A stretch of 64,000 bases of DNA from Flavobacteriaceae bacterium (GTDB lineage: Bacteria; Bacteroidota; Bacteroidia; Flavobacteriales; Flavobacteriaceae). Each line of letters starts with the position of its first letter. The first letter of the stretch is position 1. The notes under the pieces were generated by a model. That model had not been told where the DNA came from. It ran no database searches and saw only the letters and a program-made list of their open reading frames with translations. Shown one piece after another: positions 1-5,710 of the stretch. The position numbers and the translations under genes are program-made. The DNA lies in the NCBI GenBank assembly GCA_013215095.1, contig JABSPM010000116.1:1-64000 (forward strand). Reading direction: 5' to 3'.

Positions 1-1
1 A

Positions 2-127
2 TATAAATCTTTAGACGAATTAGAAGCAAAGCTAATACAGCTAATTAAAAACACAAATAAACATAAAGTTAAAAGCATTACTTCTTATCAGTATCTAGTA
101 AATGCTTATTGCGGTATTTTTAATTAA
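2..127 (+). CDS. 3' end of an unknown coding region (start outside window)
   Basis: An open frame enters from the left edge and ends at TAA 125-127. It gives about 41 residues, Lys/Leu/Asn rich, ending CGIFN. The fragment has a normal codon pattern for this genome. I do not recognise the family. It lies directly beside an IS4 transposase remnant, so it may be part of another mobile-element gene or the gene that the element entered. Too little is visible to assign a function. Confidence 0.4.
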   Translation, partial: YKSLDELEAKLIQLIKNTNKHKVKSITSYQYLVNAYCGIFN

Positions 128-156
128 GAAGTGGTATAAAAAAAGTAAAACCCTCT

Positions 157-1168
157 TTATCTAAGTAAATTCCATTTGGGATTGTCTACCCAATTTCCGC
201 GTATTTGCCTATTTGAGATACTTTTTAGTAAAATTCTTCATATCTTTAAAGAAATCGGTAAATTTAACGTAGGTAAAAAGTCTTTCTCCACTAGGCTAAT
301 AAAATTAGAAAACGAATACGTTTCTTTAAGTGTTTTCTTCATTATCGTTATTAACAACAAAGCTATTAGTGTTACCCATATCTGTATTTGTATGGCATTT
401 TTGTTTTGCCCATATAAGAAGGTATTGTAGAGGAAAGTTTTACTTGATTTTCTTGAACATTAACTCTATTTGCCAACGTATTTTATACAAGCTTGTAATA
501 TTTTGGGCAGGTTCATCAAACAAATTAGTTAGAAAATAATACGCTTTGTTCTTTTCTTGATGATAAAAGCTTACAAGCCTTAATATAACTTCCTTTTCAA
601 TCCCATCTTCTCTGTATTTTAAATACTACTTTGTCATCATTTATACAACATCAAGGTGTTACCAATCTAGGTGAGGTATTATTATTTGATAAAACTTACG
701 CTTTATTTGATAAGTGGAACAATAATGATATTTATTTTGTAACCCGTTTAAAGAACAACGCTAAAGAACGTTTTATATAAGAGTTTGATCTAGAAGAAGT
801 CACACCAGATATGATATTAAGAGATGAATCGTGTTCTTTAGCCTCGCTATGGTAAACTTTAACTGGAATACCTGCCTGCATATCTAGCTTTTGGTGACTT
901 TTTATACCGCCTTTTCGTTTGCCACTGCTTGGATTACGACTAACGCATTAAAAAATAGGCTGAAACAGGCTAATTTTAGTAGGGTCTATGCTACGTGATT
1001 TTTTATCCATAACTAATTGTTGGTGGCTGTCTGATAAATCTGGGTAATATGTTGTTACCAAATCGTAGTAGATAGCTTCAAATACTTTATAATCCCTTCT
1101 TTTGTTGGCATCAGATAGCGTACTTCTATCAGGTGTGTAATCAAATTTATAAGCTGACCAAAAAACGG
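157..1168 (-). pseudogene. IS4-family transposase, decayed and internally rearranged
   Basis: Read on the minus strand, 1168-828 encodes the N-terminal half of an IS4 DDE transposase. It shows RSTLSDANKRRD, then SIDPTKISLF with the first catalytic Asp, and GKRKGGIKSH. 640-157 encodes the C-terminal part, with RWQIELMFKKIK carrying the catalytic Glu, then QIWVTLIALLL in a shifted frame. The middle part, LGEVLLFDKTY and YFVTRLKNNA with the second Asp, lies on the plus strand at about 634-827, so it is inverted relative to both flanks. In-frame stops interrupt LFQPIF, KERFI and KKIK, and at least two frameshifts occur. The N-terminal roughly 100 residues are missing. The element is dead. No terminal repeats or target duplication could be assigned. 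Confidence 0.85.
634..827 (+). other. inverted internal segment of the IS4 pseudogene
   Basis: The segment begins with TCATC (634-638) and ends with GATGA (823-827), a 5-bp inverted repeat at the breakpoints. Turning it over restores one continuous reading on the minus strand. EAKEHDS joins in frame to SFIQHQGVTNLGEV on one side, and DMILRD joins DKVVFK on the other. The only remaining defects are the in-frame TAA (778-780) and a one-base slip just after the junction. The restored order is that of a normal IS4 transposase. The inversion is therefore read directly from the sequence; its mechanism is inferred. Confidence 0.8.
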
Positions 1169-1169
1169 T

Positions 1170-1214
1170 TGTCCGCTAAAAAAACCTCAATTATTGCGTT
1201 TTTTTTAGCGGACA
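1170..1214. repeat. 15-16 bp inverted repeat (hairpin) at the truncated end of the IS4 remnant
   Basis: The left arm TGTCCGCTAAAAAAAC (1170-1185) pairs with the right arm 1198-1214, which has eight T and then AGCGGACA. About 12 bases separate them. The arm abuts the point where transposase homology stops. It could be an IS terminal repeat, two abutting IS ends, a small MITE-like palindrome, or a bidirectional terminator; the T/A-rich arms fit the last option too. The remaining sequence to 1393 holds no convincing gene. Confidence 0.6.
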
Positions 1215-1393
1215 CTAATAATTGAAAAAATAAAAATTGAAAGTGCAATACATGTAAAATTTGGAATTGAATAATACGACACACATAAGCACAATTCTTA
1301 CACCACCAAGCTCTCGGATATGGTACTTTTCCCTTAAATGGTGATGCTTAGATAGTATATCTTTTAAGAATTGTATCTAATTATAAAATCCAC

Positions 1394-3042: not shown

Positions 3043-3221
3043 AAAAAAAGCCTACATCGGTTGTGGTTTTGTATAAACTCCTTAAAAACAAGTTTAGGGC
3101 TAACAAGCTGATCAAGGATCTGCCCAAGTATTACTACTAGCAGCCTGCTTTTACAACTTCAACTCACCCTTTTTAAAGAATTAACGTTGAGTTTATCAAA
3201 AAAATAACCAATGTAGGCAGT
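3043..3221 (-). ncRNA. ssrS: 6S RNA (6S-Flavo type)
   Basis: A 180-base intergenic segment between zapA and rny folds as a long rod. The 5' end (minus strand, 3218-3206) GCCTACATTGGTT pairs over 13 bp with 3062-3050, with one G-U pair. Further in, ATAAACTC (around 3197-3190) pairs with GAGTTTAT (around 3079-3086), leaving an internal open region. The closing stem is followed by a T-run, so the RNA ends at its own terminator. Position next to zapA is a known location of 6S RNA genes, and a Flavobacteria-specific 6S family is described. 6S RNA binds the RNA polymerase holoenzyme and tunes transcription in stationary phase. The call rests on fold and synteny, not on a covariance-model hit. Confidence 0.75.
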
Positions 3222-3242
3222 AACCATACTTATTTAAAGAAC

Positions 3243-3536
3243 TTAAGAATCTAAATGCAACTTCAAAAGCTCATCCAACGCGACTAACTTCTGTTGAACT
3301 TCCTCATTCAAATTCTCTCTATCTATTGTTTTTTGTTCCAATTGAGACGCAAATTGCAAGGCACACATGGCCAATACATCTTGTTTGTCCCTCACGGAAT
3401 AATTTTGCTCAAATTGACGTATTGCTAAATCAATGCTTTGAGCCGCTTTTCGTAATCCTTGCTCTCGACTTGGTTCTGTAGTAATAGGATACACTCTATT
3501 TGCTATCGATAGCTTTATTTTTAGCTTTTCAGACAT
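3243..3536 (-). CDS. zapA: cell division protein ZapA
   Basis: A 97-residue protein starting MSEKLKIKLSIANRVYPI and followed by an Arg/Glu-rich helix, the pattern of ZapA. ZapA binds FtsZ at the division site and bundles its filaments. The N-terminal half is the small beta domain; the C-terminal half (about 45-95) is a coiled coil for dimer/tetramer formation. It lies 16 bp after the coiled-coil gene at 3553-3843, so the two are probably co-transcribed from the promoter at 3868-3898. The 6S RNA follows at once. Confidence 0.9.
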   Translation of the reverse strand: MSEKLKIKLSIANRVYPITTEPSREQGLRKAAQSIDLAIRQFEQNYSVRDKQDVLAMCALQFASQLEQKTIDRENLNEEVQQKLVALDELLKLHLDS

Positions 3537-3552
3537 TAATTACTACGTCATA

Positions 3553-3843
3553 TTATTCAGATAGTTGTGCTATACAATAATCCAACTCTCTAATTAATAC
3601 ATTTATTTTAAGCTTTGTTTCTTTCTTATTCTCGTCACTGCCTAATATTGAATTTGCAAGTTTAAGCGTTTCATATTTATCTTCCCATTCTGACACTGCT
3701 TTCGAAAGCCTATCATTCTCTTCTTGAGACTTTGACAAATCAGCGCTTAATCTAGAATTAGTTTGCTTTAAAACTTCAAATTTGTGTAGCAACTTACTAA
3801 TCCTATGCTCTAAAGAATCTACAACAGTCTCTATTATAATCAT
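3553..3843 (-). CDS. small coiled-coil protein upstream of zapA
   Basis: A 96-residue protein that is almost entirely one predicted coiled coil: heptad-like Leu/Ile spacing from about 8 to 60, and many Lys, Glu and Ser. ATG at 3843 is preferred over the in-frame TTG at 3849. No catalytic motif is visible. Placement directly before zapA, with 16 bp between them, suggests a role beside ZapA in cell division, comparable in shape to ZapB. That role is inference from position and coil structure only. Confidence 0.7.
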   Translation of the reverse strand: MIIIETVVDSLEHRISKLLHKFEVLKQTNSRLSADLSKSQEENDRLSKAVSEWEDKYETLKLANSILGSDENKKETKLKINVLIRELDYCIAQLSE

Positions 3844-3867
3844 TTGCAAACAACAATACTAATTATA

Positions 3868-3898
3868 CAAAGTTAACATACCCATAGCAAAATTACAA
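3868..3898 (-). promoter_or_regulatory. promoter of the coiled-coil/zapA/6S region
   Basis: On the minus strand, TTG (3898-3896) is followed after 20 bases by TAACTTTG (3875-3868). This matches the Bacteroidota -33/-7 consensus TTG and TAnnTTTG. Transcription should start near 3861, about 18 bases before the ATG at 3843. Confidence 0.6.
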
Positions 3899-4021
3899 TT
3901 GTTTTACTATAAAATTTAAAACAACTTAATTTTCAAACTGTTACATAACAGTAGGCAAGGTAATTGCTATCAAGTTTGTATATTAATTTCTATTTAATAA
4001 CTTAGCTCTAATATCTTGTAC

Positions 4022-5710
4022 ATGCGAATACTATTTTTATATTTCATATTATCTTGTCAATTACTGATTTCACAAAACCCGTATCCACAAGACTATTTTG
4101 GACATCCTCTTGATATTCCTTTGGTATTATCGGGAACCTTTGGTGAGTTGCGTTCCAATCACTTCCATGCAGGCCTTGACATAAAAACACAACAAACAAC
4201 AGGTTTAAAGGTTTTGGCAGCTGCTAATGGCTATGTTAGTAGAATTAAAATATCCCATTATGGTTATGGTAAAGCGCTATACATTACACATCCTAATGGC
4301 TATACTACGGTATATGCACATCTCAAAAAATTTAGTCCAGATATTGAAGCTTATATTAAAAAACGACAATATAAAGCAGCGCGCTTTGAGATAGAACTAT
4401 TCCCGAAGGCAGAAGAATTGTGCGTTTTAAAAGGTAATATCGTGGCATTTAGTGGAAACACAGGTTCTTCAGGCGGGCCACATCTCCATTTTGAAATCAG
4501 AGACAAACAAGAACGTCCGTTAAATCCAATGCTTTTTGGAATCATAGTAAAAGACACTCGGGCACCAATGATTTTAGCTGCATTTGCTTATCCTATTGGG
4601 AAAAATGCTCATATCAACAATTCTAGCACTCGCACTAAACTGAGACTTATACCTCAAAAAAACGGAAATTACAAAACAGAAAATATCGCAGCTTATGGGC
4701 AAATAGGTTTTGGTGTTGTATCTTATGATCGCCAAGATATGGCTACCAATAAAAACGGAGTAAACAATATTCAAGGAACTTATAATGGCAATACTACAAT
4801 AGAAATTGACTTTAAGCGCTTCTCCTTTGATGAAACCAAACACCTTAATCGTTTAATTGACTATGAATACTTTAAAAAGCACAAATCTAGAATCCAAAAA
4901 CTTTTTGTAGAACCCAACAATCCATTAAGCTTATTTAAAAATGTTGACAACCATGGTTATGTTATAGTTGAAGACAGTACTGCATCTATATACAAGGTAT
5001 GTATTAAAGATTTTAATGGAAATAAAAGTTGGTTAGAGATCCCTATAAACGGTATAAAAAATGACAGTCTTCGTCCCAAAAAAAGACAGGTTACAGACTA
5101 TTTTTTATACGCATCTCAAGCTACTGATCTTGAAAAAAACAACATCAAAGTTAGCATACCAAAAAACACATTTTACGATGATTTTTTTATAGATTTTGAT
5201 GTGAATAACGACACACTAACTTTACATACCCCAACAATTCCAGTCCAAAAGCGATTTACAATTGATTTTGATATCAGTCATTACTCTGGATCCGACAAAG
5301 ACAAACTCTATATTGCCTCCATTGGAAAATATAAAGACAAACTTTACTACACGAACACAATAAAAAAAGGAAATATTTTAAGTACTAGAACAAAAAATCT
5401 AGGCAAATACACCTTAGCCACTGACATCGATAAGCCCCAAATAAAACCTATAAACTTCTTTGATGGGAAATGGCTTAGTAAATTTCGATATCTGAAATTA
5501 AAAATAAACGATAAGACTTCTGGCATTAAGAGTTATCGTGCTACAGTTAATGGAAAATGGATTTTAATGGAGTATGACTATAAAAAAGGTATCTTAACAC
5601 ATGATTTCAATGATAATATCGTTAATGAAACAAAAAATAATTTAAAGGTAATTGTTACCGACAATGTTGGAAATAGTGCTATTTTTGAAGCAAGCTTTTT
5701 TAGAAAATAA
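4022..5710 (+). CDS. M23 family (LytM-type) peptidoglycan endopeptidase
   Basis: A 562-residue secreted protein. Residues 1-18 are a signal peptide. The peptidase domain at about 25-175 carries the zinc ligands of M23 enzymes: His49 and Asp53 in HFHAGLD, and His154/His156 in GPHLHFEI, plus His100. The family cleaves cross-links or glycine-type bonds in peptidoglycan. The roughly 380-residue C-terminal part is beta-rich, ends in an immunoglobulin-like fold by appearance, and has no motif I recognise. ATG at 4022 is chosen over an in-frame TTG at 4016 because it starts the signal peptide directly. It may be co-transcribed with the TonB receptor that follows. Confidence 0.88.
   Translation: MRILFLYFILSCQLLISQNPYPQDYFGHPLDIPLVLSGTFGELRSNHFHAGLDIKTQQTTGLKVLAAANGYVSRIKISHYGYGKALYITHPNGYTTVYAHLKKFSPDIEAYIKKRQYKAARFEIELFPKAEELCVLKGNIVAFSGNTGSSGGPHLHFEIRDKQERPLNPMLFGIIVKDTRAPMILAAFAYPIGKNAHINNSSTRTKLRLIPQKNGNYKTENIAAYGQIGFGVVSYDRQDMATNKNGVNNIQGTYNGNTTIEIDFKRFSFDETKHLNRLIDYEYFKKHKSRIQKLFVEPNNPLSLFKNVDNHGYVIVEDSTASIYKVCIKDFNGNKSWLEIPINGIKNDSLRPKKRQVTDYFLYASQATDLEKNNIKVSIPKNTFYDDFFIDFDVNNDTLTLHTPTIPVQKRFTIDFDISHYSGSDKDKLYIASIGKYKDKLYYTNTIKKGNILSTRTKNLGKYTLATDIDKPQIKPINFFDGKWLSKFRYLKLKINDKTSGIKSYRATVNGKWILMEYDYKKGILTHDFNDNIVNETKNNLKVIVTDNVGNSAIFEASFFRK

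Follow-up and report, generated by a model that had tools for sequence, protein, structure and literature searches.

The window, a 64,000-nt stretch of DNA from a Flavobacteriaceae bacterium, is the start of contig C20 in the source genome (G000; 3.07 Mb in 118 contigs, 99.8% complete). A multicopy element occupies its first 139 bases and is followed by a decayed insertion sequence (IS) at 140-1220. Beyond the decayed IS lies an intact 525-aa gene, from 1448, which we recognise as ribonuclease Y. The features of the locus are listed here, with L025, L026 and L027 denoting three relatives of the IS that are described below.

1-139, plus strand: end of a multicopy element, where the contig stops; the IS4 copy is truncated by it at its 3' end
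140-633, minus strand: C-terminal part of the transposase pseudogene and following sequence, with a frameshift, stops and the Y-R-E-K motif YKIRWQIELMFKKIK; tblastn frames -1 and -2, alignments to L025, L026 and L027 (444-611)
634-827, plus strand: the 194 bp that are inverted; they encode FDK, which contains the second catalytic Asp, and IYFVTR
634-638, strandless: left arm TCATC of the inverted repeat (TCTTT in L025, L026 and L027)
691-708, plus strand: scar of a 9-bp in-frame deletion, between 699 and 700 (a gap relative to L027, L025 and L026)
778-780, plus strand: in-frame stop TAA inside the inverted segment (from the sequence and tblastn)
823-827, strandless: right arm GATGA of the inverted repeat (GATGC in L025, L026 and L027; GATGA in 39 of 55 relatives)
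828-1149, minus strand: N-terminal-half part of the transposase (RSTLSDANKRR to AKEHD), with the first catalytic Asp and an in-frame stop
1140-1149, minus strand: site where 184 bp were deleted between direct repeats of 10 bp, TAAATTTGAT, whose arms lie at 2301 and 2485 in L027
1150-1181, minus strand: stub of N-terminal coding sequence (FSGQPFFGQL), its start codon lost in a ~58-bp deletion
1182-1220, minus strand: left IS end, with terminal repeat TTAGTGTCCG and a hairpin with A and T tracts (86% identity to L027 2156-2214)

We assign the decayed element at 140-1220 to the IS4 family (NCBIfam NF033592, transpos_IS4_1) because a 279-aa read-through of the window pieces, set in the order of the relatives, scores 152.3 bits to NF033592 and exceeds the curated cut-off of 115. 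The intact relative L025 encodes a 408-aa protein that scores 215.3 bits to the same model, with DUF4372, DDE_Tnp_1 and NF033592 all above their cut-offs. By eye, the DDE triad of the window copy reads as ID in the N-part, FDK in the inverted segment and YKIRWQIELMFKKIK in the C-part; the last holds the Y-(2)-R-(3)-E-(6)-K motif typical of IS4 transposases. Pfam searches with six short window pieces returned one sub-threshold DDE match, and DUF4372 had no match in G000; most of that domain falls in the stretch lost by the window copy. The terminal repeat is kept at the left IS end and the right end was removed by another IS at ~139. Similar terminal repeats are present in the relatives L020, L022 and L023 and are not among the longest pairs of L019. 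Overall, the window copy resembles the IS4 family (mostly Bacteroidota; DUF4372, DDE_Tnp_1, NF033592) in all kept transposase pieces, the left terminal repeat and the left-end hairpin, and departs from it in being middle-inverted, deleted, frameshifted and truncated.

The multicopy sequence at 1-139 recurs with 99-100% identity at 8 other places in the assembly, each at a contig end or no more than ~45 bases from one. A relative on C45 (77% identity) carries two ORFs, one for an HTH part and one for a DDE part, that we read by eye as IS630-type. We found no intact IS4 copy in the G000 assembly. C112 carries a 219-bp IS4 remnant, and weaker protein matches lie on C112 and C49. The remnant (C112:498-716, in locus L002 1-720) derives from the 3' part of this IS4 element and shares 90% identity with window 139-358; read by eye, it follows directly on the C-terminal part of an apparently different DDE transposase gene. 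At the DNA level, a search of 60 near genomes gave four matches, i.e., G000 itself and three of only ~40 bases; at the protein level, the middle piece matched in 7 of 397 genomes of Flavobacteriaceae, G000 counted.

Relatives found via the middle piece in other family genomes include L019, L020, L022 and L023. A scan of a genome collection, with an alignment that included the window read-through protein, confirmed 412 loci, and the best 80 were used. The three closest of these 80 serve as references: L025, on a MAG contig binned as Paraglaciecola, with 71% protein identity over 279 residues; L026, from a Maribacter MAG, with 70%; and L027, from Tenacibaculum sp. MAR_2009_124, with 80% over 170 residues, which is itself broken by another insertion. 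That interruption (3046-4117, ~1 kb) encodes a 170-aa zinc-ribbon transposase-like ORF, by eye IS1595-type. L025, the closest intact relative among them, sits on a 3.3-kb contig; Paraglaciecola is a gammaproteobacterium, yet most listed loci are named Bacteroidota, possibly reflecting a binning error.

The initial annotation had read 634-827 as an in-place inversion of the middle of the transposase, and the relatives bear this out: against L025, L026 and L027, the flanks align on the minus strand and the middle on the plus strand. Since lenient blastn matches on the minus strand extend across the middle at low identity, the pieces were aligned separately. The plus-strand blastn match of the middle covers 634-826 in L027 (78.7% over 202 columns, E 1.3e-43) and in L025 (71.9%, E 1.7e-30) and 634-799 in L026 (69.1%, E 1.6e-22). 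Placed in the opposite orientation, the middle yields weak local matches only, with scores of 14-18 versus 69-118. Similarly, L019 and L020 proteins match the window by tblastn in frame -3 up to AKEHD, in frame +1 for the middle (E 2e-10 and 1e-8, respectively) and in frames -1 and -2 for the rest.

A search of related genomes for an intact copy, as the annotation had advised, recovered L025. The annotation had also placed the second catalytic Asp in the inverted part; FDK indeed lies in 634-827, and the un-inverted order is present in 85 of 85 relatives tested. Three pieces of the L025 protein are collinear on one strand by tblastn in each of these relatives and mixed only in the window (1 of 86), a tally in which collinear loci are favoured, the 80 loci having been picked with their pieces in natural order. 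The 85 relatives comprise the best 80 of the 412 loci and L019-L023; the decayed matches L018 and L024, in G016, stand outside them. Several copies per genome are included among the 80, such as 11 from Polaribacter filamentus and 4 from Gelidibacter algens.

Aligned nucleotide by nucleotide, a further check that had been proposed, the pieces have continuous subject coordinates, and in L025, where both junctions are readable, the net length is unchanged. The left junction is exact in L026 and L027, where subject 2806 (window 828) is the last base of the N-part and subject 2807 (window 634) the first of the middle, and in L025, where it falls at subject 1331/1332. At the right junction of L025, the last aligned base of the middle is subject 1533 (window 826) and the first of the C-part is subject 1536 (window 632), with two bases unaligned on each side; for L027 and L026, the right junction was followed by eye in the sequence. 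As assembled, the sequence does contain the flip.

The inverted segment and its flanks resemble each relative to about the same degree, which argues that the segment belongs to the same copy. Piecewise identities of the N-part, middle and C-part are 85.1, 82.4 and 83.9% for L027, 74.1, 76.0 and 69.6% for L025, and 72.9, 72.9 and 72.5% for L026, where the L026 middle stops at window 799 and the C-part covers 444-611 for L027 and starts at 594 for L026.

The inverted repeat reported at the breakpoints is present, TCATC at 634-638 and GATGA at 823-827, with five pairs and a match that stops outward. The corresponding ends pair at 5 of 5 positions in the window and at 2 of 5 in each of L025, L026 and L027 (TCTTT/GATGC). 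Across the wider set, both ends were located in 55 of 85 relatives, of which 11, 42 and 2 have 0, 1 and 2 of 5 positions paired; ends were found by a simple pattern that left 14 of the 85 unlocated and 16 more without a right end, and that missed L027, which was read by hand. TCATC is absent from the listed left 5-mers of these 55 relatives, and GATGA is the right 5-mer in 39 of them. From these sequences, the right arm may be old and the left arm new. The 0-2 of 5 pairing in all 55 relatives with both ends located makes it possible that the repeat is a product of the event. In the distant relative L081, SS follows HD as in the window, written in other codons (AGCAG).

By itself, the 5-bp repeat does little to support any one mechanism. 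With breakpoints drawn at random 150-250 bp from each other, such a repeat would occur by chance in 0.6-1.0% of cases if they are known exactly and in 6-10% if known to 2 bases, and inverted repeats of 5 bp spaced 100-400 bp apart number 510 pairs in this 1.1 kb. Longer imperfect repeats sought at the ends of L025, L026 and L027 were no better than random, with 90-100% of random pairs reaching an equal score, which weighs against the template switch proposed below.

The inversion is one of several lesions; truncation, a frameshift, in-frame stops and the loss of other pieces also mark the copy. The direct repeat bounding the 184-bp deletion is 10 bp long in L027 and 8 bp in L025, and, relative to L027, ~58 bp were lost around the start codon between T-rich stretches. 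Random deletions simulated in the L027 element were bounded by a direct repeat of at least 10 bp at a frequency of ~0.0002; the figure for at least 8 bp is the same, so the simulated draws probably all landed on that same repeat.

Differences from L025 at codon positions 1, 2 and 3 number 8, 10 and 28 in the middle and 17, 9 and 56 in the N-part, and those between the intact pair L025 and L026 number 62, 30 and 176. The third-position excess in these counts suggests that most of the divergence is older than the decay. Second-position changes are somewhat more numerous in the middle, and one C-terminal piece compared with L026 (13, 10, 13) lacks a third-position excess; the counts are too few for dating the inversion.

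We propose that the locus holds a dead, 3'-truncated IS4-family copy, the central 194 bp of which were probably inverted in place during decay by template-switch replication misalignment. Replication through the copy would switch template to the opposite strand ~190 bp away, copy back across the segment and then return, guided by few paired bases. The right end (GATGA) could have been copied onto the left in the process, leaving a perfect 5-bp inverted repeat; alternatively, substitutions might have made the repeat beforehand. The 184-bp, near-start and 9-bp deletions would fit the same family of copying slips. The largest deletion is well accounted for by slips at short repeats, and a slip onto the opposite strand would be a natural companion for the inversion. 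The segment is presumably functionless now, and no recombinase would have been needed.

A more specific version, which we offer tentatively and regard as doubtful, is that a single ~200-bp bacterial template switch both inverted the segment and copied GATGA leftward, thus making the repeat that looks causal. The template-switch mechanism is weakened because five base pairs carry it, at the 6-10% chance level that applies with 2-bp uncertainty. Homogenisation is weakened because the extra pairing comes down to three differences, and with relatives 15-30% diverged, earlier substitutions would suffice for these. A gain of five bases and a loss of five at one end, with length unchanged, is itself a coincidence for homogenisation. 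Most likely, this is a copying accident in the ordinary decay of a mobile element, with the 5-bp repeat as either cause or product.

The initial annotation had considered a microhomology or template-switch event at the repeat. The template switch stays preferred, and a pre-existing 5-bp repeat as its substrate goes unsupported by the relatives, at most two of five pairs being present in 55 of 55. Such a substrate may nevertheless have existed, given that the closest relatives are 15-30% diverged and GATGA is common further away (39 of 55). In a rival reading, the repeat would be the cause, made in the lineage by earlier substitutions and used in a simple inversion by illegitimate recombination or end joining. 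The unchanged length and the fully matched 5-bp repeat agree with this reading, as does the abundance of substrates (the 510 pairs in 1.1 kb) and of the right arm; the three of ten bases at which L025, L026 and L027 differ, and the poor pairing throughout the relatives, speak against it and leave it rather unlikely. An artefact of assembly or amplification, in which a chimeric read or contig error produced the inverted piece, is improbable. Strand-displacement amplification can yield inverted chimeras, and the contig ends 634 bp away inside a multicopy IS; however, the assembly contains the inverted segment only once, neither un-inverted junction was found there with up to 3 mismatches allowed, and a 5-bp repeat is short relative to assembly word lengths. 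Nothing observed favours either misassembly or a flipping population, though a minor flipped one is conceivable.

Intragenic invertons have reportedly been described in bacteria by Chanin et al. in 2024, and the window likewise has an inversion within a bacterial coding sequence. Unlike those elements, it has a repeat of 5 bp, shows no sign of reversibility in the assembly, where un-inverted junctions were not recovered, and contains a gene that is dead either way. A regulated, recombinase-driven switch is therefore very unlikely, as the other lesions keep the gene dead in both orientations, and its repeat is absent from the 55 relatives with both ends located. More remote still is an origin of the middle from a second, oppositely oriented IS copy. 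A related fragment does exist elsewhere in the genome (C112:498-716), but the middle fills the gap without overlap and matches each relative about as well as the flanks do.

Our preferred reading, template switching during decay, has a parallel in yeast genes, where template switching between imperfect inverted repeats homogenises the arms and inverts the spacers (Abraham and Hazkani-Covo 2021, PMC8604942). The spacers inverted there are 2-5 bp long and lie between arms of more than 9 bp, and in REG2, one of ten such inversions, an arm was changed as well (PMC8604942). As in those cases, a segment between short inverted repeats has flipped in the window, with arms that are perfect here and imperfect in relatives; unlike them, the window has 5-bp arms, a 184-bp spacer and a bacterial host, far from the yeast dimensions. 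Among the top literature matches listed, none dealt with a microinversion of an IS4 pseudogene.

The locus concerns a single decayed element, with no visible change to host biology. Here a dead mobile gene has undergone a clean microinversion, and its relatives are near enough for the ends to be compared before and after. Collections of such cases could show whether breakpoint repeats are causes or products. If template-switch homogenisation were true and general, the short repeats at bacterial pseudogene microinversions would often be scars, not substrates.

Finally, the IS4 left end (TGTCCG and the hairpin; window 1170-1214) also occurs on C114 as a near-perfect ~50-bp palindrome with the terminal repeat on both sides (L013 1510-1556; G000:C114:62612-62658) and, less well kept, on C47 (L014 1501-1545). 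An exact pattern search returned the window site and C114 only. The C114 and C47 palindromes resemble a minimal MITE with a terminator-like hairpin.
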